From Mesorhizobium sp. WSM3860 (GTDB taxonomy: Bacteria > Pseudomonadota > Alphaproteobacteria > Rhizobiales > Rhizobiaceae), in NCBI RefSeq assembly GCF_002294995.1, contig NZ_NSGF01000005.1, positions 62,001 through 126,000 on the forward strand: a stretch of 64,000 nt of DNA, read 5' to 3'. Below the pieces are notes generated by a model. That model saw only the letters and a program-made list of their open reading frames with translations, ran no database searches and was not told where the DNA came from. This document shows positions 11,455 through 64,000 of the stretch, piece after piece. The first letter of the stretch is position 1. Every line of letters starts with the position of its first letter. The position numbers and the translations under genes were made by a program.

Positions 11455-12387
11455 AGCGCTAGATTTAGAGTGGTGACAAGCGAAGATATATATAAAGTTG
11501 TTGCAGTTGTATTGCAAATGTAACGGCGCTATTAAATTTGTCGCGGACAAAATTCACAATTGGGATAAGGACGGAGTTAGAGAGGCGTTCATCCGGGTCG
11601 ACCACCATCAACGATCATGGTGATCCCCCGCATCGGTGCCGCGGCCGCCATCTAGGTGGACGCAGGACCGAAATGAAATAAAAAGTCTCAAAGAGAGAGC
11701 GAAGAGTTGCGGGGCCTCCAGCCTCTACTAAGAGGTCCCAGACCGCAAGATTGCCGAGCTGAAGCCTGGCGCCGTGTACCGCGGCCCGAGAAAGGGAAAA
11801 GGAGACCTTACCCTGCCGAGGAAAAAGCAACGTCCAGCTGTTCAGTCACAACTGTGGAAATTAGAGACGACCGATTCTTCAGAAGGCAATCGATCGCTGT
11901 ACTTTCGCCCGAACTCTGCGAATTCCTCGACACAGCTGCCAGTCCTATCCTGCTCCGCTTTTGAGGCGGTCTACCTGTACAACTGCACAGGATGCCAAAA
12001 CCCCTAGATTTGGGCTCCAATGGCGTGGAAGTTTCCGGAGGAGGCCTTCTATGACCGCGTTCATTGCGCCCGATACTACATCAACCTGCCGACAATATCG
12101 TGGGCAATCCATCGCCAGCCTTTACCTGCGCCTTCACGCGACGTTTGGCGCCGGCCGCCGCAGCCGGCAACCTATGAAGACGATTCTGTTGACCCGCTCA
12201 CACCGCGCTGATCGTTGCTGCGCGTCGATAGCCAGTTTGCTGATTGCCTGCGATTTCTTTCCTCGGCAACGTCAATCGCGTCCGGTTCGACAAAAGGGCA
12301 CCACTGATGTCTGGTGCTTTCGTCGCTGCTGTTCCGCCCGATCGCATGATGCTTCAACGTTTCTGGGCGGGGAGGGGAGCGGCAGTC
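11455..12387. other. gene-poor stretch
   Basis: No convincing gene is seen on either strand. Short open frames here lack family motifs and ribosome binding sites, and the composition is mixed. If the FseA-like gene that follows is real, its leader and promoter lie here, but I found no traI-type gene or tra-box palindrome upstream of it. Confidence 0.4.
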
Positions 12388-13192
12388 ATGCGAGTTCTTT
12401 TGACCGACGCTGATCAGGCCGACTGGTGGGAGGAAAGATCATACGATTACACCAGCGGTCTGACGCCACGCGGGTGGGCCTGGGAGTTCTTGCGCCGCAA
12501 TCCAGCATTCCAGCGTGCTGTGATCGCAGCGCCTCAGCAGGCCAACCCCTTGCCTCACCAGCCGTCTATCGACATGGTCACGCCGACCGGTGACTTGTCA
12601 CGCTGGGGTGTCCTGTTTCGCCGAGTCTTATGGGCGAAATTCGGTCGTATTCTGGTCTCCGCTTTGGTGCGTCCATGTGCTGCCAGTCATTGCAGAACAG
12701 CTGTCTGCATCCTGGGCGATATTGCCGTTCGAACTGTCGGCATTGCCATGTCTTGCGACGGTCCTGCTGGCGCCCGACAGAAGCCAGCACGTTCTTCTTC
12801 GCAATGCGGAGTATACGCTCCAGCTCGCCGTCTATGGCGCGGACATACTAAATCCTGTTTGCCTCCGTACCGAGGCTATCTGGCCGGCAATGTTCTCCAA
12901 GCCCCGCCTGAAGGCGCTCGAGTGCCTCAATACTTTAACTTTGGGTCAACAACTGCCTTCCCGGTTGTTTCCGCCGGAAAAACGCGGCCCCCGTCTAACG
13001 TTCGTACTTCGTGCGCTCGACGGCTCACGGGCTGGGGCATCACATCGCGAACTCGCGGAGGCGCTGATTGGTCAAGGGCGCGTCCATGCCGACTGGAGGG
13101 ATCCTCGCGGTCATTTGCGCGACCGCATTCGCCGCGCCGTCTCGCGTGGCCGCGCCCTCATGAATGGAGGGTACAAAGAATTCCTCACTTGA
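12388..13192 (+). CDS. fseA: DUF6499-DUF2285 protein read through a +1 frame change (FseA-like)
   Basis: From the ATG at 12388 (GGAGGGGAG upstream) the first frame encodes a DUF6499 domain (YDYTSGLTPRGWAWEFLRRN, then LSRWGVLF). The DUF2285 domain follows in the next frame (VVFWSPLWCVHVLPV, LQLAVYGADI, LRALDGSRAGASHRELAEAL, ending ALMNGGYKEFLT at 13192). The domains join if ribosomes shift +1 near TTT-C at 12616-12619, where tRNA-Phe could slip from UUU to UUC. In ICEMlSymR7A the excision activator FseA is made by programmed +1 frameshifting of two overlapping genes with these domains. Here frame one stays open far beyond the site, and the usual upstream traI gene is missing, so a decayed copy with one inserted base is the alternative. 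Confidence 0.6.
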
Positions 13193-14264
13193 AAGCAGTC
13201 CGCCCCTGTGCGTCAGCCGGCGAACAGCTGGGAGCTAAAACTCAGTCACGACCAGTTCACCCGGCCGAAAAGGCGGTAGCTCGCGGACTCCAGATCCGTG
13301 ACGAAGTCAACGGTCATGCCGACGAGATGGGGCTGGGAGCTTGCGTCTACGAACACGTTGGCCCCTCCCTTCCATGGCCGCATCCCCTCGCGCGAGACGC
13401 TTTCAAGACCAGGTACTTGAGGCCGGCGCAGCCGCCCGCCGCTCGACGATGATGCGAAAGTCTTCTGGCATGCTGCGCTCCAAAAGCCGAGGCCCGTATT
13501 GGGTTCTCTTCATCGTCATCGCACAGCGCAGTTTCGATAACCGTACCGATAGTGGCTTCTAGAGTACCCACGAGCCGACGCAGGATCGACGGCCCCTGGC
13601 GTCTCATTCGGTAGGGAGCCGGGATCTCAGGCGGAGGGGATATCTGGGCTGCAGCTGGTGTGATGGCGGCGCCGGTTCACAATTCACCGGCAACACATCG
13701 ATGGGAATAGGGCTGACAGTTGGACATAGCGTGGACGCAGTTCTATGGATCTCTGCGGTTTGAGCGGGCCGACTAGATCCTACAACAGTCAAACCTTCCA
13801 CGCCCTTTCAGACCTGTTTCGGCATTGGCCCCGCCGCCTGACGCAGACAGTGCCGCCACGGCGCACGTCCGAGGAGTAGTCTGCGCGGTGAAATGCTTCA
13901 GCGTCGAACATCTCTGGGCGAGTCTTGTGCACCACGCGGCGTAACGCTGCTGCCTGGGGGAAAGGCGCGCCGACCGCCTACCTTTTGGGCCATGCAGTTC
14001 GCCAGCTTTCCGTCTCACCAGCACTTCGCCAATTTCGTTGCGTTCTTGTTTAGGGGTTGCAACAAACCCTTCAAGAAAATTCATGTAATCTTTGCACCGA
14101 AAATCCTTGTGAATGGTACTCTCACTAGAACTTCGACTTCAGTGGCGGCAGAAATCTGATATAGTTGATATGTTCCATCGCCGAACAGCTTGCGAAGAGC
14201 GCGAAATGACAAAGCAAGCAGGACGAGGATTCGGGTGTTGTTCTATCTGTGGTCGTGCTGACCG
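13193..14264. other. gene-poor stretch before the ArsR-SHMT gene
   Basis: Only short frames without recognisable motifs are seen. Just upstream of the next gene there is a 9-bp direct repeat (GATATAGTT at 14158 and GATATGTTC at 14167) and an inverted repeat GCTTGC/GCAAGC around 14190-14220. Either could be a control site for the SAM-cycle genes, but both are weak. Confidence 0.3.
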
Positions 14265-15986
14265 ATGATGATGCTTATTGACCGCCTAATGACAGCAGCA
14301 CATCTTGATCGGTTAAGGATTCTGGGCCTTTGCGCGCATGCCGACCTGACTGTCTGCGAACTAGCAGAGATTCTGGGTCTGCATCGCGAGCACGTCGTGC
14401 GACATGTGCGGAGGCTCGCCAGAGCCGACTTTCTTTGCGGCAACGGACAACGTCCTTGGTCCTCATATCATCTCAACACAGTGGCCAAGGACCGAGGTTT
14501 GGTTCAATTCTTGGTCGATCTCCTGCCCCACGACGATGGGCCTCATAAGCGGGATCTGGAGCGGCTCGAGGCGGTACAAGGCGGCCGGGCCAGGGGGGCC
14601 GCCTGCTTGATGGGGAATAGATCCATCCAATTGGAGCGCGAAACTGCCACGCACAATTCGGCCGGCGGCGACACCACAGAACCCGACACTTACGGGGGGC
14701 TTCATCTTGCGGCCGTAGATTGTCGCGTTCACGAACTGCTTCTAAGACAGGAGCGCCAGGAGCGGACAACTCTCAAACTTATCGCCTCCGAAAACTTTGC
14801 CTCCTCGGCCGTCCTGGAAGCGACCGGCTCGATCTTCGCGAACAAGTATGCCGAGGGCTACCCGGGTGCGCGCTACTACGCGGGAAACGAGATTGTCGAT
14901 GAGCTTGAGACCCTCGCCATCGAGCGCCTGAAGACGCTATTTGGTAGTGAACACGCCAACGTCCAGCCCTATTCCGGCTCGCCGGCCAATCAGGCTGTCT
15001 ATCGCGCCCTTTTGATTCCCGGAGACAAAGTCATGGGTTTGCCTTTACCCGAAGGCGGCCATTTGACTCACGGTTGGTCCGTCAACTTTTCCGGCACTGA
15101 TTATCAACGCGTCCCGTATGGGCTGCACGAAAACACGCAGCAAATCGACTATGACCGCTTGCGCGAGACCGCCAAGCGGGAACGCCCGAAACTCATCTGG
15201 GTCGGTGGAACTGCCTATCCACGCATTTTTGACTACGCGGCAATGGCCGAAATTGCTTCGGAGGCGAACGCCTATCTAGTGGCCGACATCGCCCATATCA
15301 GCGGCCTAGTTGTGGCAGGAGTGCATCCGAACCCCGTGCCCCATTGCGATGTGGTCACCAGCACGTCTCACAAGTCGATCCACGGGCCCCGTGGAGGCTT
15401 TATTCTGTCGAAGAATGAAGATCGCTATCAGGCGCTTTATCGTCCGAACAGCCAATACAATCTGGCCAAACGCATTGACCGCGCCGTGTTCCCTCTCCTG
15501 CAAGGCGGACCGCATATGAATACTATCGCCGCGCTTGCCGTCGCTTTGCAGGAAGCAGCGAAGCCGTCCTTTCGTATCTACGGTCAGCAGATCATCAACA
15601 ACGCAAAGGCTCTGGCCCAGGCGCTTCTGGCGCGAGGTTATGAACTCGTCACAGGCGGGACTGACAATCACATGCTGATCCTTGACGTTCGGAACCGGCC
15701 GCTATCAGGCAAAGCCTATGCCGATCGCCTGGCAGGGGCAGGCATCATTACGAACTTTAATATGGCGCCGGGTGACCGACGGCATCCGGCGCTCACAAGC
15801 GGCATCCGCATAGGGACGCCAGCGGTGACGTCCATGGGCATGCGCGAGACGGAGATGGTGCAGATCGCCGATTTCATCCACTCGGTCTGCCGCCAGCCCG
15901 ATGACCAGGAAGTCCATGCGAGCGTACGAAGAGAGGTTGCCGACTTCTGCACTGCGTTCGACGTCCCCGGCATCAGCGACCGATAG
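14265..15986 (+). CDS. glyA: ArsR-type winged helix fused to serine hydroxymethyltransferase
   Basis: One continuous 573-codon frame. Residues 1-110 are an ArsR-family winged helix (DRLRILGLCAHADLTVCELA, LGLHREHVVRHVRRL) ending DLERLEAV, which resembles the linker of rhizobial ArsR-methyltransferase regulators. Residues about 150-573 are serine hydroxymethyltransferase with LIASENFAS, the PLP Lys in TSTSHKSIHGPRGG and complete C-terminal motifs. SHMT makes 5,10-methylene-THF and glycine from serine. A second start at 14610 (MGNRSIQ) could make SHMT alone, so the fusion may be a two-product gene. It is followed by metK and adenosine kinase, so regulation by SAM or SAH is a reasonable guess. 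Confidence 0.85.
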   Translation: MMMLIDRLMTAAHLDRLRILGLCAHADLTVCELAEILGLHREHVVRHVRRLARADFLCGNGQRPWSSYHLNTVAKDRGLVQFLVDLLPHDDGPHKRDLERLEAVQGGRARGAACLMGNRSIQLERETATHNSAGGDTTEPDTYGGLHLAAVDCRVHELLLRQERQERTTLKLIASENFASSAVLEATGSIFANKYAEGYPGARYYAGNEIVDELETLAIERLKTLFGSEHANVQPYSGSPANQAVYRALLIPGDKVMGLPLPEGGHLTHGWSVNFSGTDYQRVPYGLHENTQQIDYDRLRETAKRERPKLIWVGGTAYPRIFDYAAMAEIASEANAYLVADIAHISGLVVAGVHPNPVPHCDVVTSTSHKSIHGPRGGFILSKNEDRYQALYRPNSQYNLAKRIDRAVFPLLQGGPHMNTIAALAVALQEAAKPSFRIYGQQIINNAKALAQALLARGYELVTGGTDNHMLILDVRNRPLSGKAYADRLAGAGIITNFNMAPGDRRHPALTSGIRIGTPAVTSMGMRETEMVQIADFIHSVCRQPDDQEVHASVRREVADFCTAFDVPGISDR

Positions 15987-57481: not shown

Positions 57482-57775
57482 ATGTCGAAGGATTCAGGTA
57501 AGAACGATCACGCCGGCGGGCCAGGCAAGATCGAGATCACGGTGGTGGTGAACGGCCAGCCCACGCAGGTCGAAGCCAATCCCAACCAGCCGCTGCACGT
57601 GGTTCGTACCAAAGCCCTTGAAAACACGCAGAACGTCGCCCAACCGGCCGAGAATTGGGAATTCAAGGACGAGGCCGGCAACTTGCTCGACGTCGACAAA
57701 AAAGTTGGCGATCTCGGTTTCGCGAACACTGTGACCCTGTTCCTCAGTCTGAAGGCGGGCGTTGCAGGTGCCTGA
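57482..57775 (+). CDS. ubiquitin-like modifier protein (BilA/DUF2604-like)
   Basis: A 97-residue protein with a disordered N-terminal 15 residues and a beta-grasp pattern: KIEITVVVNGQPTQVEANPN (strands 1-2), LHVVRTKALENTQN (helix), ENWEFKDEAGNLLDVDKKVG and VTLFLSLKAGVAGA. It resembles the DUF2604-type ubiquitin-like proteins encoded next to E1/E2/JAB genes. It lacks a di-glycine tail; the last residues are AGVAGA, so a peptidase may have to trim it to a Gly. It overlaps the E2-like gene. The fold is inferred from pattern and context. Confidence 0.8.
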   Translation: MSKDSGKNDHAGGPGKIEITVVVNGQPTQVEANPNQPLHVVRTKALENTQNVAQPAENWEFKDEAGNLLDVDKKVGDLGFANTVTLFLSLKAGVAGA

Positions 57776-58385
57776 ACCCCAAACTGTGGATCCGGAGGTC
57801 TCCCGAGCGAAGTTTGATCGGGAGATCGGCCGTTTCCGGCCATATGCCGATGCCTATCGGGCTCAGGGCTGCTTCCTGCTTGAGGCGAGCTTCCCACGCG
57901 CTTTCTTTATTTTCGGAAGCCCCAAGTTAAAACCGCGGGTGATTAGCGCAGCGAGCGAGGTCGACTTCACCAACTACGACTTAAGACCGCCGTCGGTGGG
58001 CTTCGTCGATCCATTTACGCGCCAGCGGATTGCCCGGAAAGATCTATACCTGAAAATGCTGAGACGCCCGCCGCTGCCCGGAACGCCGCCGGAGATGATT
58101 GGAGCTCTCATCCAGCAGAACGCCGTGCCGCTGACGGACTTCATCCAGGCCAACGGGCCCGAGCACGAACCTTTCCTGTGCATGGCGGGAGTGCGGGAAT
58201 ACCACGATAATCCAGCCCATTCGGGTGACCCATGGCTACTTCATCGGGGTTCTGGAGAAGGCTGTTTGGCCTTCATTCTGGACAAGATCATCAAATACGG
58301 AATCAACCCTATAGAGCAGTTGCAGATTCAGCTCCAACCGACCATCGTGGGAATGGCGGTGTCGCCTCAGGCGATACCGGAATGA
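57768..58385 (+). CDS. E2-like ubiquitin-conjugating protein
   Basis: From a GTG at 57768 (TTG at 57762 also possible) this 205-residue protein resembles the divergent E2 (UBC-like) proteins of bacterial Ubl operons: SFPRAFFIFGSPKLKPRV fits the UBC beta-sheet, and REYHDNPAHSGDPW plus RGSGEGCLAFILDKI carries His146, His151 and Cys166, a candidate catalytic Cys at the family position. Cys138 (PFLCMAG) is the alternative. Its start is inside the Ubl gene and its stop overlaps the JAMM gene start. Confidence 0.75.
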   Translation: MPEPQTVDPEVSRAKFDREIGRFRPYADAYRAQGCFLLEASFPRAFFIFGSPKLKPRVISAASEVDFTNYDLRPPSVGFVDPFTRQRIARKDLYLKMLRRPPLPGTPPEMIGALIQQNAVPLTDFIQANGPEHEPFLCMAGVREYHDNPAHSGDPWLLHRGSGEGCLAFILDKIIKYGINPIEQLQIQLQPTIVGMAVSPQAIPE

Positions 58386-58870
58386 CTGAATTGAAAGATG
58401 TAACGAGCGTGACTCTCCCGCGGAGCTGCATCTCGACCACGCATGCGCATCTGCGCTCAGCTGGTCGCGAGGGCAATGAGGGGATGGCGCTCTGGGTCGG
58501 CGTTCAGCAAGACCGGCAATTTGCCGTGACAGAGACGGTTATCCCGGCGCAGCGTCACATTCGCACAAGCGATGGCGTTTGCGTGATAGTTCCGGCCGAA
58601 GAACTGCACCGGCTCAACGTCTGGCTCTACAAAAGCGGCCTGAAACTGTTGGCCCAGATTCACAGCCATCCGGGCCGCGCCTACCATTCGACGACCGACG
58701 ACGCTTATGCGGTTGCTACAACGGTTGGGTGTCTGTCGCTGGTGGTGCCGAATTTCGCCCGTGAGCCTTTCGATCTTGCTCGCGTCGCTGCCTATCGACT
58801 TGACGCAAAGGCGAACTGGAATGAGGTCGCGTCCGCGGCCCTGATGCGAATGATCACGATAACGAGCTGA
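58382..58870 (+). CDS. JAMM/JAB-family metallopeptidase (deubiquitinase-like)
   Basis: A 162-residue protein with an intact JAMM zinc site: Glu33 (GNEGMALWVG) and HSHPGRAYHSTTDD with His94, His96, Ser103 and Asp106. Such peptidases cut isopeptide bonds or process the Ubl C-terminus in Bil-type systems. The start overlaps the E2-like stop (ATGA) and the next gene starts two bases after its stop. Confidence 0.9.
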   Translation: MTELKDVTSVTLPRSCISTTHAHLRSAGREGNEGMALWVGVQQDRQFAVTETVIPAQRHIRTSDGVCVIVPAEELHRLNVWLYKSGLKLLAQIHSHPGRAYHSTTDDAYAVATTVGCLSLVVPNFAREPFDLARVAAYRLDAKANWNEVASAALMRMITITS

Positions 58871-58872
58871 CG

Positions 58873-60432
58873 ATGGCCCTTGCAAACTTCATCGACCGCG
58901 CTGCCACGGCGGCATCTCAGGTGCTGGCCGACTTTCATCTGGGCGACTTCAAGGCAGCTCTCGAAAAGCAGGTCGTGGCTGTCGCCTTCGACAATCAGGC
59001 CGCTTCGTGCGCCGAAGGCCACGCGACGCTGGATCTTGCGGTGAGGTTGCTCGCCAGACTCTATCCGGTTCTGGCAATACTCCCCTTGGACAGCGCGGCA
59101 AACGCGCAAGCCCGAGCGCTGGAGCGCTTGGCAAAGTCGATTAATCCGAAAGTAGGCATCCGGCGCTCCGGCAAGTCTGCCAGCGTGTGCGTGGTGGCAG
59201 GGGCAACGTGCCCATCACTGCGGTGCCCAACCTTCTTCATGGGATCGGACGGTTGGGCGGCAAAGCTGTCGCGTACCGACCCGGTGGGCTCTGGCCCAAG
59301 TTTGCTGCCCTATGGAGCTGGCGCCGCCAGTTGTTTCGGCGCCGCCAATGTCTTTCGAACGATCTTCGCCGCCCAGCTCACCGGCGCCGAGTTGGACGAA
59401 ACCATCGACCTCTCGTTATACAGCTACGACAAGACCAAGGCCGGCGATGCCGGCCCCATCGACTTCCCTGTCAACCTTGGCGAAACGCACCTCGTCGGGC
59501 TCGGCGCGATAGGTCATGGCGCGCTTTGGACGCTAGCGAGACAACCCGGTCTCTCGGGTCGCCTGCATGTAATCGATCCCGAAGCGATCGAACTCTCAAA
59601 CCTGCAGCGCTACGCATTGGCCGGCCAGGCGGAGATAGGCATGTCCAAGGCGGTCCTTGCAACCACCGTCCTTCGATCGACCGCCCTCGATGTCGAGGCG
59701 CACCCGGTGAAGTGGGCAGAATATGTTGCGCGCAGGGGCAATTGGGTCTTCGACCAAGTGGGTGTGGCGCTTGACACCGCCGCCGACCGTCTGGCTGTCC
59801 AAGGTGCTCTGCCCCGATGGATCGCGAATGCCTGGACCCAGGAGCACGATCTCGGAATCTCCCGGCATGGTTTCGACTACGGCCAGGCTTGCCTTTGTTG
59901 CATGTACATGCCGTCCGGAAAATCCAAGGACGAGCACCAGCTGATTGCCGAGGAACTGGGAATACCGGAAGCACAGGAGCAGGTGAAAACGCTCCTGCAG
60001 ACGAATGCCGGAGTTCCCAACGACTTTGTTGTTCGGGTGGCTGCTGCGATGGCTGTGCCGTTTGAACCGCTAGCCCCGTTTGTTGGCCAGCCGCTGCGCA
60101 CCTTTTATCAGCAGGCGATCTGCGGCGGTCTGGTGTTCCAGCTCAGTAATGGAAGTCGCCTCGTTCGAGCCGCGGTTCCGATGGCGTTTCAGTCAGCGCT
60201 TGCCGGGATTATGCTTGCCGCGGAACTGGTCAAGCATAGTGCGGGTTTTCCCATGAGCCCGATGACGAGCACTCGGGTGAATCTTCTGCGGCCCCTTGGC
60301 TCTCATTTGCACGATCCGAAGGCCAAAGATTCCAGCGGCCGCTGCATCTGTAGCGACGACGATTTCCTTGCCGCTTACAGGCGCAAATATAGCAAGAGCG
60401 TTGAGCAGCTAAGCGATGTCTCCGCCGCCTAA
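58873..60432 (+). CDS. E1-like (ThiF/MoeB-fold) ubiquitin-activating protein
   Basis: A 519-residue protein. Residues 1-180 are a separate N-terminal region of unknown type. The ThiF domain has GLGAIGHG (209-216), Asp235 in VIDPEAIELSNLQRY, the loop at 296-306 and four Cys that could bind zinc (C340/C343 and C491/C493). Cys417 in QAICGGL is a candidate catalytic Cys. It would adenylate the Ubl and pass it to the E2-like protein. With the three genes before it this completes an operon of Ubl-E2-JAMM-E1, the order of type II bacterial Ubl (Bil-like) systems. Confidence 0.88.
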   Translation: MALANFIDRAATAASQVLADFHLGDFKAALEKQVVAVAFDNQAASCAEGHATLDLAVRLLARLYPVLAILPLDSAANAQARALERLAKSINPKVGIRRSGKSASVCVVAGATCPSLRCPTFFMGSDGWAAKLSRTDPVGSGPSLLPYGAGAASCFGAANVFRTIFAAQLTGAELDETIDLSLYSYDKTKAGDAGPIDFPVNLGETHLVGLGAIGHGALWTLARQPGLSGRLHVIDPEAIELSNLQRYALAGQAEIGMSKAVLATTVLRSTALDVEAHPVKWAEYVARRGNWVFDQVGVALDTAADRLAVQGALPRWIANAWTQEHDLGISRHGFDYGQACLCCMYMPSGKSKDEHQLIAEELGIPEAQEQVKTLLQTNAGVPNDFVVRVAAAMAVPFEPLAPFVGQPLRTFYQQAICGGLVFQLSNGSRLVRAAVPMAFQSALAGIMLAAELVKHSAGFPMSPMTSTRVNLLRPLGSHLHDPKAKDSSGRCICSDDDFLAAYRRKYSKSVEQLSDVSAA

Positions 60433-60495: not shown

Positions 60496-62466
60496 CTATG
60501 ACACGCCTGGCCCGCTCCTCTGCCGGCCGAAGTTCCAGGAAATCCCTTCACCGCGCACGATCCCGGACACCTCCTTACCGAGGTGTCGATCGAGCACAGG
60601 CCGCCATGGTACCAGCGTGAACTCGCGCGATTTCTCGATGACGGCATATTTGCCGCTGGCAAGCTCCAACTTTTCGCGCAGCCTGCCTGCTATCCGAACC
60701 CCAGGCTTGGCTTCGGAATACGACAGTCCAAGTTCGTTCGATAGTTGGCCAGCCACACGGTTCAACTCACGCTGCCGCAGGATCGAAAGCATGTTGGCGC
60801 GGTAAACGATCCGATCCTGCTCTTCGCGCGCGAGGTCTTGCGCGATCAGCCATTGCCGCCGGCGGGCTTGCGCTTCCCGGACGTCACGGCCAAAGCCGGA
60901 GTTGTGCAACGATCCCGGCATATCGGAGACCAGCTCGCGGTCGAGCCAGGTGGCGCCGTCAAAGCCGACCTGCCGCTCCAGGGGCATCGAAGTGAGCTTC
61001 TCGACGGTGACGGGCTCGGTCCTGGCCCGCTGGCGCTCGTAGTCGCAGACGCGATCGAGATGGTCCGTCGCGATGATCCAGGTGCCGTCCGGCTCGCGCT
61101 CCACGCCGCCGATGGCGCGCCGGATCGCCTCCAATCGACGGACATGCGTTTGCGCAAAGCTCTCGGTGGCGGATTTGTCGTGCTTCAGATGGATATCCAC
61201 GTCGTAATGGCCGCCATGGGCGGCGGCGATCTCGGCGACAGTACGGTCGACCTGCCTCGGCTCGGTGCTCCTCGGGGTGGCACACACGATGCAGCCTTCG
61301 GGCGTGGGTTCGGTGGCCTCACCTTTGCCGATGTCGATCCAATGGCTTTTACCGTCAACTCCGTCGACGACAAGGTATTGCCGGTCATTGATTTCGTCGG
61401 CGAGCCCGCGCGCCACGACGCGGCCGACGACGGGCTGTGCCGCCTCGCCGGATCGATCGTGGATCACGCAGTCGGCGGCACTGCGCGTGAGCCCCTTGCC
61501 GGCCAGCTCGCGATGCATGGTCTTGATGATGTCGCCGCGCTCGCCGATGCGCCGCAGGGTGGTTTCCAGCTCGCCCTCGAGTCGCCAGCGGCCCGGGCCG
61601 ACTTCATCAGCCAAGCCCATCCGCTCGAGCTTTCGCAAGCGACCCTGGTGCAGCGTCTGGCGAAAGGTGTCGCGGCCGTTCGTCGAAACAAGACCGTCAT
61701 CGTCACGCATGCGCAGCAGCTGCCGGTCGATGCTGGTAAAGCGTTCCTGCTCCATTTCCTGGCGCAGGCGCTGTTCGATCTCGCGATCGGTGCGAGGTCC
61801 AAGGTCGAGGCTGACCAGCTCTGCCGCGCGCTCGCGGATTCCACTCGAGACATACTGCCTTGCGATGACGAGGTTCTCGCCGCGATCGTCCTTGCCGCGC
61901 ACGATGATATGCGTATGCGGATGGCCGGTGTTGAAATGGTCGACCGCGACCCAGTCGAGCTTGGTCCCGAGGTCCTCTTCCACCTGAGCCATCAGACGTC
62001 GAGTCAGCGGCTTCAGGTCCTCATACTCGATGCCGTCTTCTGGTGCGACTATGAAGCGGAACTGATGGCGGTCGCCATCAGTGCGATCGGCAAACGCCTT
62101 ACCATCGATGCGGTCGCTATCGCCGCCATAGAGCTCGCCAGCTTCGTCTTCGCGGGTGACGCCGTCGCGCTGGAGATAGCGCAGATGCGCACGCGCCCCG
62201 TCCGCGCCCTTGCCGGCGAGCTTGACGAAGCGGGCCTTGACGACGACCCGCCGCTGGCGGAAGGCGGCATAGCGATCGCGCGATTTCAGCAGCGCAGCCG
62301 CCGCCCCGCCGCGCCCTGTACGGCTTCCGGTGAAGCGACCACCGCGCTGCGGCCGGCCGCCGGCCCTGTTGATCGCGGCCCGAACCTGACCGGCATAGCG
62401 TTTGCCGGCCTTCGAACCGCGGGAGCCTATTTTCCCGAGCTTCGGTCGGAACTCATCATCCTGCAT
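60496..62466 (-). CDS. rlxS: RlxS-type relaxase (VirD2-like with DUF3363)
   Basis: From the ATG at 62466 (GGAGG upstream) the protein has 656 residues. The relaxase histidine triad is in DHFNTGHPHTHIIVRG (H182, H184, H186), preceded by RHQFRFIVAPEDG; the second half (VARGLADEINDRQYLVVDG and later TWLDRELV) is the DUF3363 region of RlxS relaxases. It would nick and carry the ICE at oriT. The gene order matches rdfS-traF-msi107-rlxS of ICEMlSymR7A. A tandem-repeat candidate oriT is just upstream of its start. Confidence 0.92.
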   Translation of the reverse strand: MQDDEFRPKLGKIGSRGSKAGKRYAGQVRAAINRAGGRPQRGGRFTGSRTGRGGAAAALLKSRDRYAAFRQRRVVVKARFVKLAGKGADGARAHLRYLQRDGVTREDEAGELYGGDSDRIDGKAFADRTDGDRHQFRFIVAPEDGIEYEDLKPLTRRLMAQVEEDLGTKLDWVAVDHFNTGHPHTHIIVRGKDDRGENLVIARQYVSSGIRERAAELVSLDLGPRTDREIEQRLRQEMEQERFTSIDRQLLRMRDDDGLVSTNGRDTFRQTLHQGRLRKLERMGLADEVGPGRWRLEGELETTLRRIGERGDIIKTMHRELAGKGLTRSAADCVIHDRSGEAAQPVVGRVVARGLADEINDRQYLVVDGVDGKSHWIDIGKGEATEPTPEGCIVCATPRSTEPRQVDRTVAEIAAAHGGHYDVDIHLKHDKSATESFAQTHVRRLEAIRRAIGGVEREPDGTWIIATDHLDRVCDYERQRARTEPVTVEKLTSMPLERQVGFDGATWLDRELVSDMPGSLHNSGFGRDVREAQARRRQWLIAQDLAREEQDRIVYRANMLSILRQRELNRVAGQLSNELGLSYSEAKPGVRIAGRLREKLELASGKYAVIEKSREFTLVPWRPVLDRHLGKEVSGIVRGEGISWNFGRQRSGPGVS

Positions 62467-62568
62467 CCCGGCCTCCGGGTAATCCAAAGCCAGATCAACC
62501 GCTTAGGCGCCGCAGCCTCCTGGCGCCGCAAACTGCCTCCTGGAAAAACGATGTGCAGACAAAGACTT

Positions 62569-62656: not shown

Positions 62657-63340
62657 CTAGCCATCCGGCTCCTTTGGCCGCATGCCATCCTTGCCAAGCG
62701 GCACGAAGAGATCGCCGTTTCGCATGCCGGCGCGAACACGGTCGTGGAGGAAGAACAACGAGCGCCCCGAGGGTGCCTTTGGCCCCTCCGGAGCGACAGA
62801 TTTGCCCTTGAATTGCTTCATGTCGGTGGCCGAAATCCCCGCCGCCCTGAGCTGCTCGAGGTAATCGACGGTCTCTTTGGGCAATGGCTTGCCGTGCTTC
62901 AAATACCCTTCGTAGCGCCCGGGGCCTGCGTTGTAGGCGGCGAAGAGGCCGGGGAATCCGAAGCGGTCATACATGGCTCGCAGATAGGCGGTGCCGGCCA
63001 GAATATTGTCGCGCGGATCGTGCGGATTTGGGCCGAGACCATTGGCCACGCGCATCTCCGCATAGGTGGCGGGCATCACCTGCATGAGGCCAATGGCGCC
63101 GGCGCGAGAGGTGATGGGGCGGCCGTCGCGCATGGTGTTGCCGCCGCTTTCGGCATTCATGACGGCGCGGATCCAGGCCTGCGGAACACGAAAACGCCGG
63201 CTGGCTTCCGCGACGAACTTCTGCCACTTTCCAAGCTGCGGACTTTGGGAGATGGCGACCGGCTCGGCGCCGGTCGAGGCGGAAAAGGCGCATGGCGCGG
63301 TGGCGATCATGCCCAACATCAGGAGGGTCACTCGGTCCAT
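62657..63340 (-). CDS. lytic transglycosylase of the transfer system
   Basis: From the ATG at 63340 (MDRVTLLMLGMIATAPCAFS) the 227-residue protein has a signal peptide and an SLT/lysozyme-like domain with the catalytic Glu in AVMNAESGGNT, then GAIGLMQVMPATY and AAYNAGPGRYEGY. It cuts peptidoglycan to let the transfer machinery through the wall. It overlaps traF by 13 bp. In ICEMlSymR7A the gene in this place is msi107. Confidence 0.9.
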   Translation of the reverse strand: MDRVTLLMLGMIATAPCAFSASTGAEPVAISQSPQLGKWQKFVAEASRRFRVPQAWIRAVMNAESGGNTMRDGRPITSRAGAIGLMQVMPATYAEMRVANGLGPNPHDPRDNILAGTAYLRAMYDRFGFPGLFAAYNAGPGRYEGYLKHGKPLPKETVDYLEQLRAAGISATDMKQFKGKSVAPEGPKAPSGRSLFFLHDRVRAGMRNGDLFVPLGKDGMRPKEPDG

Positions 63341-63876
63341 AGCGGCACGAGCCTCCCGATGATTTTTTGGGCCGGCACCGGCCCGAAATAGCGGCTGTCG
63401 AAGGAGCGATTGGTCTCGTTGCCGAGCAGGAACACCTCGTCCTTGGTGAGTGCCCGGCAGCCGTTCCACCATGGCAAGGGCCGGCCTTGGGCGTCGATCT
63501 TGAGCCGGCGCGCGACGATGTCGCCGCCGATGATGATGGCGTCATGGAAGGCGCAGACATGCTCGCCTGGCAGTGCGGCAAGGCGTTTGACCAGCGCCAC
63601 ATTGCCAGGCAGATAGCCGCGTTGGGCCGCCAGATACGCCACGTAATCAGGCGGGCGGACGAGCACCAGATCGCCCAGCGCCGGCGTGCCCGTAGCGATG
63701 CGATAGAGGCCGATCGGCGCGCTGGCCGAGGCGTTCCAGACCAGCCAGGGCGTGGGTTTTGCGAACGTGGTGAAGCCTAAAAGGCTGAGGCCAATCGTGG
63801 CAATGGCGATCGTCTTGCGGGCGCGAACGCGGCGCAGGCCGGAGCCGATGATGCGCAGAAAAGGACGCCGGCTCAT
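63328..63876 (-). CDS. traF: TraF-type signal peptidase (S26 family)
   Basis: From the ATG at 63876 (MSRRPFLRIIGSGLRRV) the 182-residue protein has an N-terminal membrane segment (IAIATIGLSLLGFTTF), the catalytic Ser in SASAPIGLYR and the catalytic Lys in VKRLAALPG, with box E-like NETNRSFDSRYFGPV. TraF-like peptidases process (and often cyclise) the conjugative pilin. It overlaps the rdfS-like gene (ATGA) and the lytic transglycosylase gene. Confidence 0.92.
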   Translation of the reverse strand: MSRRPFLRIIGSGLRRVRARKTIAIATIGLSLLGFTTFAKPTPWLVWNASASAPIGLYRIATGTPALGDLVLVRPPDYVAYLAAQRGYLPGNVALVKRLAALPGEHVCAFHDAIIIGGDIVARRLKIDAQGRPLPWWNGCRALTKDEVFLLGNETNRSFDSRYFGPVPAQKIIGRLVPLWTE

Positions 63877-64000
63877 GAGCGGCCCCCATCGTCGGCCGGC
63901 GTGGAACCGGCTTTGGGAGCGCCGTAGTGCGGATGGCCTTTCGACCATTCGTCGAGCTCGTCGATGTGATAGCGGACATAGCGGCCGTGCTTGCGGAATT
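63873..64000 (-). CDS. rdfS: RdfS-like excisionase (winged HTH), partial
   Basis: The frame entering from the window end reads FRKHGRYVRYHIDELDEWSK and ends GGRS with a stop overlapping the traF start. This is the C-terminal half of an excisionase-like HTH_17 domain, and the position before traF, a lytic transglycosylase gene and rlxS matches rdfS of ICEMlSymR7A, the recombination directionality factor. Only 42 codons are visible, so another small HTH protein is possible. Confidence 0.7.
   Translation of the reverse strand, partial: FRKHGRYVRYHIDELDEWSKGHPHYGAPKAGSTPADDGGRS

Follow-up and report, generated by a model that had tools for sequence, protein, structure and literature searches.

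The gene at positions 12388 to 13192 of a 64,000-nucleotide stretch of the Mesorhizobium sp. WSM3860 genome, hereafter the window, is, judging from its sequence, very probably an fseA gene of the ICEMcSym1271 type on a symbiosis ICE, that is, an orthologue of msi172-msi171 expressed by +1 frameshifting, in which unshifted ribosomes would usually read on. FseA is the switch by which symbiosis islands, which turn soil bacteria into legume symbionts, leave the chromosome, and the frameshift of fseA was reportedly described in a PNAS 2015 paper. The WSM3860 gene belongs to an FseA sub-type that is already described, and the clade-wide open frame 0 is its added feature. In the FseA literature covered by our search, which was available in part and did not include the PNAS 2015 paper, no description of a clade-wide open frame 0 was found.

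Reading frames, domains and slip site

The frame opened by ATG 12388 (frame 0) encodes a DUF6499 domain at residues 12-78 (PF20109, E 5.9e-13, score 49.4 bits, cut-off 23.8) including the motif AWEFLRRN, and the +1 frame encodes a DUF2285 domain (PF10074, E 3.9e-20, score 72.9 bits, cut-off 26.4), which bears out the initial annotation on both domains. The msi172-like part runs on the forward strand from 12388 to the slip codon at 12618, and the two frames are joined at CTG-TTT-CGC (12613-12621), where the codon TTT (12616-12618) is followed by C 12619; after TTT has been read, a slip onto TTC would make GCC the next codon, so that the msi171-like part, i.e. the linker and DUF2285, is read from 12620 to 13192, with its stop at 13190-13192. 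The joined product with the +1 slip at TTT-C has 267 residues, and its W236, R248 and R249 have the same spacing (counted by hand) as Trp235, Arg247 and Arg248 of FseA, which are required for activation (PMC10359603). In the 12 codons 5′ of the slip site synonymous variation is lower. A search against NCBIfam assigned no family.

The C-terminal part of the protein also matched the structure 6xz5 of Yersinia RovC (E 9.6e-6), which has a C-terminal DUF2285-type domain like that of FseA. RovC controls the type VI secretion system of Yersinia, and we know of no use of frameshifting by it.

Frame 0 stays open over 12244-13452. It continues past the slip site across the whole DUF2285 region (12619-13452, forward strand, 277 codons after TTT), and its stop is reached 278 codons past TTT, in agreement with the earlier observation that no stop lies near the slip site. 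This frame-0 tail is arginine-rich, with 15% Arg in the window copy. An antisense gene behind the stop pattern was ruled out, the antisense stops in the window copy numbering 5, 5 and 5.

Conservation of the slip site among homologues

A DNA match was present in 97 of the 146 genomes of the genus, and 89 places were examined among the matches listed; together with the window, the plasmid-record loci L004, L008 and L009 and the decayed L015, these gave 94 stretches. The slip motif, searched by the amino acids around Phe-Arg and not by codons, was found in 92 of them (L015 and L139 were without it), and all 92 rows with the motif used the slip codons TTT-CGC. The TTT-C join at 12616-12619 that had been proposed is upheld. 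The 92 rows comprise 67 of the clade of the window copy, 23 canonical ones, and L137 and L138, which fall in neither clade; two plasmid copies are counted twice (L004/L020 and L008/L019).

Both DUF6499 and a full-length +1-frame DUF2285 were retained in 52 of the 67 window-clade rows, while the other 15, L004/L020 and L008/L019 among them, failed the length criteria for one half. Frame 0 remained open past the end of DUF2285 in 38 of the 52 intact window-clade copies vs none of the 23 canonical copies, and among the readings offered initially a variant frameshift fits best. In the canonical copies, among which that of R7A itself is not included, the frame-0 stop lies 7 codons (20/23) or 37 codons (3/23) after TTT, compared with 278 in the window; one of the three with 37 codons, L127, belongs to a genome in which the plasmid match has, as we infer, the coordinates of pMLa of MAFF 303099. 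Fifteen loci of the wider family (L141-L155) yielded the slip motif in seven, namely six copies of other genera and the window-clade copy L141; the six from other genera have their frame-0 stop at codon 7 (four copies) or at codons 16 and 74. The +1 layout is thus common to canonical, window-clade and other-genus homologues. The distance of exactly 7 codons was seen in L009, L114-L122, L124-L126 and L128-L134 (canonical) and in L145-L147 and L149 (other genera), and such a constant slip-to-stop distance may affect frameshifting.

In a FastTree tree the window clade is star-like, with the window copy on a longish branch. Near the base of the clade lie L110 and L111, which form a pair, and L113, all with a stop 2-5 codons past the slip site, as well as L041, whose first frame-0 stop is at 107; L028, inside the clade, has its frame-0 stop at 2. 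L113 is located between traR-like and qseM-like genes, which is the canonical place. From the placement of these copies the open frame 0 may be derived.

The 30 loci L080-L109, which come from species-level genomes, resemble one another closely, with an identical DUF2285 coding sequence in 12 rows, suggesting the recent spread of one ICE lineage. Copies from the same clade that lie on plasmids (L004 of M. huakuii 583, L008 of M. loti 582, and L005-L007) are broken, either by a stop within DUF6499 together with a changed phase or by the replacement of DUF6499 with other DNA.

The upstream region and the other parts of the switch

A tra-box-like palindrome, CCTGTACAACTGCACAGG, is located at 11974-11991 on the forward strand, with its centre 405 bp before the fseA start. 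It has 0 mismatches to a tra-box pattern that we wrote ourselves and is the sole match in the window, where 0.15 chance matches are expected at up to 2 mismatches. The same pattern, with 0-2 mismatches, occurs 380-409 bp upstream in 25 of the 31 clade loci examined (the window, L018-L045, L110 and L113), the misses being L019, L020, L042-L044 and L113. The canonical copies had it upstream in 1 of 23, a count that is uninformative as the stretches there are possibly too short.

An ORF that starts at ATG 12051, 69 bp after the palindrome, and extends on the forward strand to 12413, overlapping the fseA start codon, appears to be a truncated traI2 remnant (5′ end MTAFIAP...). By eye, its leader and first residues look like those of the less damaged traI2 of L009, and a Pfam search of 12051-12413 found no domain left. 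The statement that no traI lies upstream of the gene is therefore to be revised, since this truncated traI2 and the tra-box palindrome are both present.

The genome holds two further, decayed fseA copies. One lies at about 45.45-46.09 kb of contig C44 (about 9450-10086 of L015), between traR (C44 44719-45444) and a QseM-like gene on the reverse strand (C44 46117-46437, with a DUF2285 match just below the Pfam cut-off), both some 28-29 kb from the window fseA, and thereby occupies the site where a canonical fseA belongs; the other is a remnant at 29.0-29.4 kb of contig C25 (5020-5446 of L010). The suggestion that the gene might be a second copy holds to this extent. A DUF6499 search of the genome at E 0.01 recovered the window copy alone.

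The predicted target operon lies at the far end of the window, on the reverse strand. There we identified by Pfam an rlxS-like relaxase gene (60496-62487), an msi107-like transglycosylase gene (62657-63472) and a traF-like peptidase S26 gene (63328-63948), followed by the 3′ end of rdfS (63876-64133, running past the window end; rdfS starts at C44 126133). The names rlxS, msi107, traF and rdfS were assigned by analogy with the published operon. A perfect FseA-box-like repeat, GGCGAA-N16-TTCGCC, is present at C44 126201-126228, 68-95 bp upstream of rdfS, and was recognised by a layout that fits the text of PMC10359603, not by its letters. Its hexamers were perfect in 20 of the 20 rdfS loci examined, with a spacer of 16 in 19 of them and of 17 in one. 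The rdfS operon with its inverted-hexamer repeat is accordingly located on the same contig as the window fseA.

The genome further contains three AHL-synthase genes and two trbI genes, one of each on this contig; near the same-contig AHL-synthase gene (L209) no tra-box pattern was found, so that quorum control of fseA in WSM3860 is only putative. NodA and other nodulation-type genes are encoded within the window, and from these we conclude that the element is a symbiosis ICE. The symbiosis region also includes a ubiquitin-like pathway cluster (57488-60432) of DUF2604, CEHH metal-binding, JAB (BilC-like) and E2-E1 (BilD-like) genes. Elsewhere in the window, a serine hydroxymethyltransferase ORF (14265-15986) with an in-frame N-terminal extension, weakly like an ArsR/Crp-type HTH (below the Pfam cut-offs), precedes metK- and adenosine kinase-like genes.

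Comparison with known systems

The closest known counterpart is ICEMcSym1271 of M. ciceri bv. biserrulae WSM1271, in which traI2-msi172-msi171 has moved away from traR2-qseM-qseC. Its traI2 has undergone internal truncation, the remnant overlaps with the start of msi172, and the centre of a tra-box lies 398 bp upstream (PMC5882170). In that strain, msi172-msi171 is increased about 60-160-fold under quorum sensing and its overexpression raises transfer 38-fold (PMC5882170). The WSM1271 copy in our set (L197) belongs to the window clade, has 83% amino-acid identity to the window copy over the DUF2285 frame and carries the palindrome at exactly 398 bp; because a second copy, though a partial one (L207), is present in WSM1271 as well, L197 was matched to the published, cloned gene by this tra-box distance. 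The two elements share the slip site, the palindrome about 400 bp upstream, the truncated traI2 overlapping the fseA start and an rdfS operon located elsewhere on the element. They differ in that the first frame-0 stop of WSM1271 lies 98 codons after the slip, compared with 278 in the window, and in that WSM3860, unlike ICEMcSym1271, has kept a decayed fseA at the traR-qseM site.

ICEMlSymR7A resembles the window in having an fseA (msi172-msi171) of DUF6499 and DUF2285 joined by a +1 frameshift, under tra-box control and with rdfS as the target (PMC10359603, PMC11963761); there, however, fseA lies in an operon downstream of traR with traI2 and qseM-qseC (PMC5882170). The antiactivator QseM is of the same DUF2285 family as the fseA product but stands alone, without DUF6499; it is reported to bind FseA through the DUF6499 part of the latter but not to bind the FseA box, and two-hybrid experiments show QseM interacting with the portion of FseA that msi172 encodes (PMC10359603).

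Alternatives to a working frameshift gene

The two frames might be what is left of an fseA duplicate that a one-base change has disrupted, the initial annotation having also raised a recently broken gene. In favour of such a break, the two other fseA copies of the genome are decayed, the 15 window-clade rows mentioned above (two plasmid copies being counted twice) fail the length criteria, and DUF6499 is missing from other plasmid copies as well, that of pMLa for instance. Homologues read through in a single frame had been named as the sign of a simple mutation, and among the rows read one such case was found: in the M. wenxiniae copy L031 (also L200), both domains have come into a single frame through a deletion that precedes the slip site. 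The same M. wenxiniae genome holds a second copy (L105), which is two-frame. Against the broken-gene reading, the +1 layout recurs in both clades and in other genera, both halves are kept in the majority of window-clade rows, and the WSM1271 gene, which is active (PMC5882170), appears to be of the same layout. In addition, the window copy compared with five relatives gave dN/dS values of 0.14-0.30 in the DUF2285 frame and 0.18-0.44 in DUF6499, so both halves are under purifying selection. On the homologues and these dN/dS values a recent break was rejected, and we consider it improbable that the gene is a pseudogene. Some mild decay of the window copy itself is nonetheless conceivable in view of its longish branch and of its DUF6499, which shows more changes at codon positions 1 and 2 than that of the relatives (ratio 1.09 vs 0.74).

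It seems more improbable still that two separate proteins are made with no slippage, i.e. a DUF6499 protein with a long frame-0 tail and an internally started DUF2285 protein. A GTG at 12590 does open the DUF2285 frame, and Azorhizobium homologues are described with start and end codons of their own (PMC9601964), but no conserved start codon was seen by eye in the translations of the DUF2285 frame before the slip, the slip codons are invariant, and the FseA already known acts as a fused protein (PMC10359603). We thus retain the reading as a frameshifted fseA of the ICEMcSym1271 type.

Stop codons in the unshifted frame

The openness of frame 0 could be due to chance or to selection. In the window copy, 0 frame-0 stops were found vs a mean of 5.1 in codon shuffles of the DUF2285 frame (P 0.002). 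This value was not taken at face value and, like other single-sequence shuffle P-values, was corrected, because ordinary genes are depleted too: 26 of them in the window had 273 such stops vs 414 expected by shuffle, 34% fewer, and 2 of 78 comparable, half-overlapping 190-codon segments were stop-free, which indicates that part of the depletion is codon context. For the window gene alone a fair P is about 0.03, and the evidential weight on the openness of frame 0 rests with its relatives.

Synonymous-codon shuffles were applied to 32 distinct DUF2285 sequences of the window clade and 18 canonical ones, of 189-191 codons, which are related, so that the tests are not independent. All 32 clade sequences were below the shuffle mean, 30 of them with P<0.05, vs 1 of the 18 canonical sequences at that level. 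In 27 clade sequences 0.33 frame-0 stops per gene were seen vs 5.2 after shuffling, compared with 3.0 vs 5.1 (n=10) and 5.5 vs 4.7 (n=8) in the canonical sets; frame 2 of the clade was not depleted (4.89 seen, 4.56 shuffled). By alignment column, a T was present in at least two rows in 1 of the 20 columns where it makes a stop, vs 66 of 133 other columns (Fisher P 7e-5). The same test gave P 0.07 and 0.12 in the two canonical sets, and a canonical sub-test on C-majority columns gave P 0.039.

In order to account for common ancestry, a tree-aware null was used, in which sequences were simulated along the tree under the DUF2285-frame constraint only and with the measured context bias, in 250 runs for each starting sequence. 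The set comprised 27 distinct sequences of exactly 190 codons, without L110, L111 and L113; it also lacks L028 (stop 2 codons after the slip) and L035 (three stops) and includes the single-frame L031. Nine stops were observed vs means of 50, 62 and 40 for the three starting sequences, which corresponds to P <0.004 and 0.004 when starting from L023 or the window and to P 0.028 from L045. For the 19 stop-free copies of 27, P was 0.004, 0.004 and, from L045, 0.048; without context bias all P were <0.004. The P-values with which frame 0 is depleted of stops as a second frame thus range, by null, from <0.004 to 0.05, and those of the simulations are slightly too small, as the simulated third-position divergence was about 46-48 compared with 42 in the real sequences.

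These simulations replaced earlier ones on a star tree (7 stops among 15-16 tips, with means of 38-42 without and 22-24 with context bias), which overstate independence. Six hand-picked tip pairs were dropped, as most stop-carrying tips were left out of them. The broken L004, L008, L019 and L020, with many stops in the DUF6499 frame, were set aside as evidence of selection because DUF2285 has changed phase relative to DUF6499 in them and the stops fall in another frame.

A sequence-conserved protein overlapping in frame 0 was unsupported. In all 29 comparisons, the identity of frame 0 to relatives differed by no more than 0.04, up or down, from that of frame 2, which is not used. The DUF2285 frame showed no reduction in the ratio of third- to second-position changes (3.09 in the window clade vs 2.93 and 2.46 in the canonical sets).

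Two accounts of the stop pattern must be weighed. In our judgement it is an even question whether codon context and shared descent alone have left frame 0 open, without selection acting on it. The depletion in ordinary window genes, the higher P-values from L045 with bias, the likeness of frames 0 and 2 in their identity to relatives and the canonical C-majority result all speak for this, as do the one or two frame-0 stops carried by 8 of the 27 distinct clade sequences and the stop at codon 98 in WSM1271. It is harder to reconcile with the total-stop P-values obtained from L023 or the window, with a column effect that is stronger in the clade than in the canonical sets, and with the absence of depletion in frame 2. 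Only tentatively, and leaning slightly against it, do we propose that selection in one Mesorhizobium branch keeps the unshifted fseA frame free of stops across DUF2285, with indifference to the amino acids encoded.

Proposed mechanism and significance

Following the R7A analogy, TraR and its signal at the tra-box would lead to transcription of the traI2 remnant and fseA. Ribosomes would translate DUF6499 up to TTT 12616, and a minority of them would slip +1 onto TTC and continue into DUF2285; from the conservation and the published gene we infer both the slip and its rate, and the activity of the product and any role of the unshifted one are inferences too. The 267-residue FseA would then bind the GGCGAA-N16-TTCGCC box before rdfS and switch on the excision and transfer genes on the same contig. 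Unslipped ribosomes would read frame 0 through the whole of DUF2285, whereas most canonical copies would release them soon. The resulting DUF6499 with its arginine-rich tail might titrate QseM, which is possible because of the reported interaction of the msi172-encoded part with QseM (PMC10359603); alternatively, reading through in frame 0 might protect the message.

If selection does keep frame 0 open, the gain might be that unshifted ribosomes keep moving, which would, for example, shield the message from Rho-dependent termination or prevent release and re-start of a lone DUF2285, or else that a DUF6499 product with a long arginine-rich tail can titrate QseM. In that case there would be two designs of frameshift gene, one to stop soon and one to read through.

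Since the first stop of WSM1271 is at codon 98, a frame-0 stop near the slip site was not counted as defining for FseA; such a stop appears unneeded, and its absence is compatible with a working gene. The existence of a branch without the nearby stop, which very probably includes the experimentally active copy, argues that the stop is not required for the +1 frameshift, and it would spare annotators from calling such genes broken or from taking the long frame-0 ORF for a separate gene.
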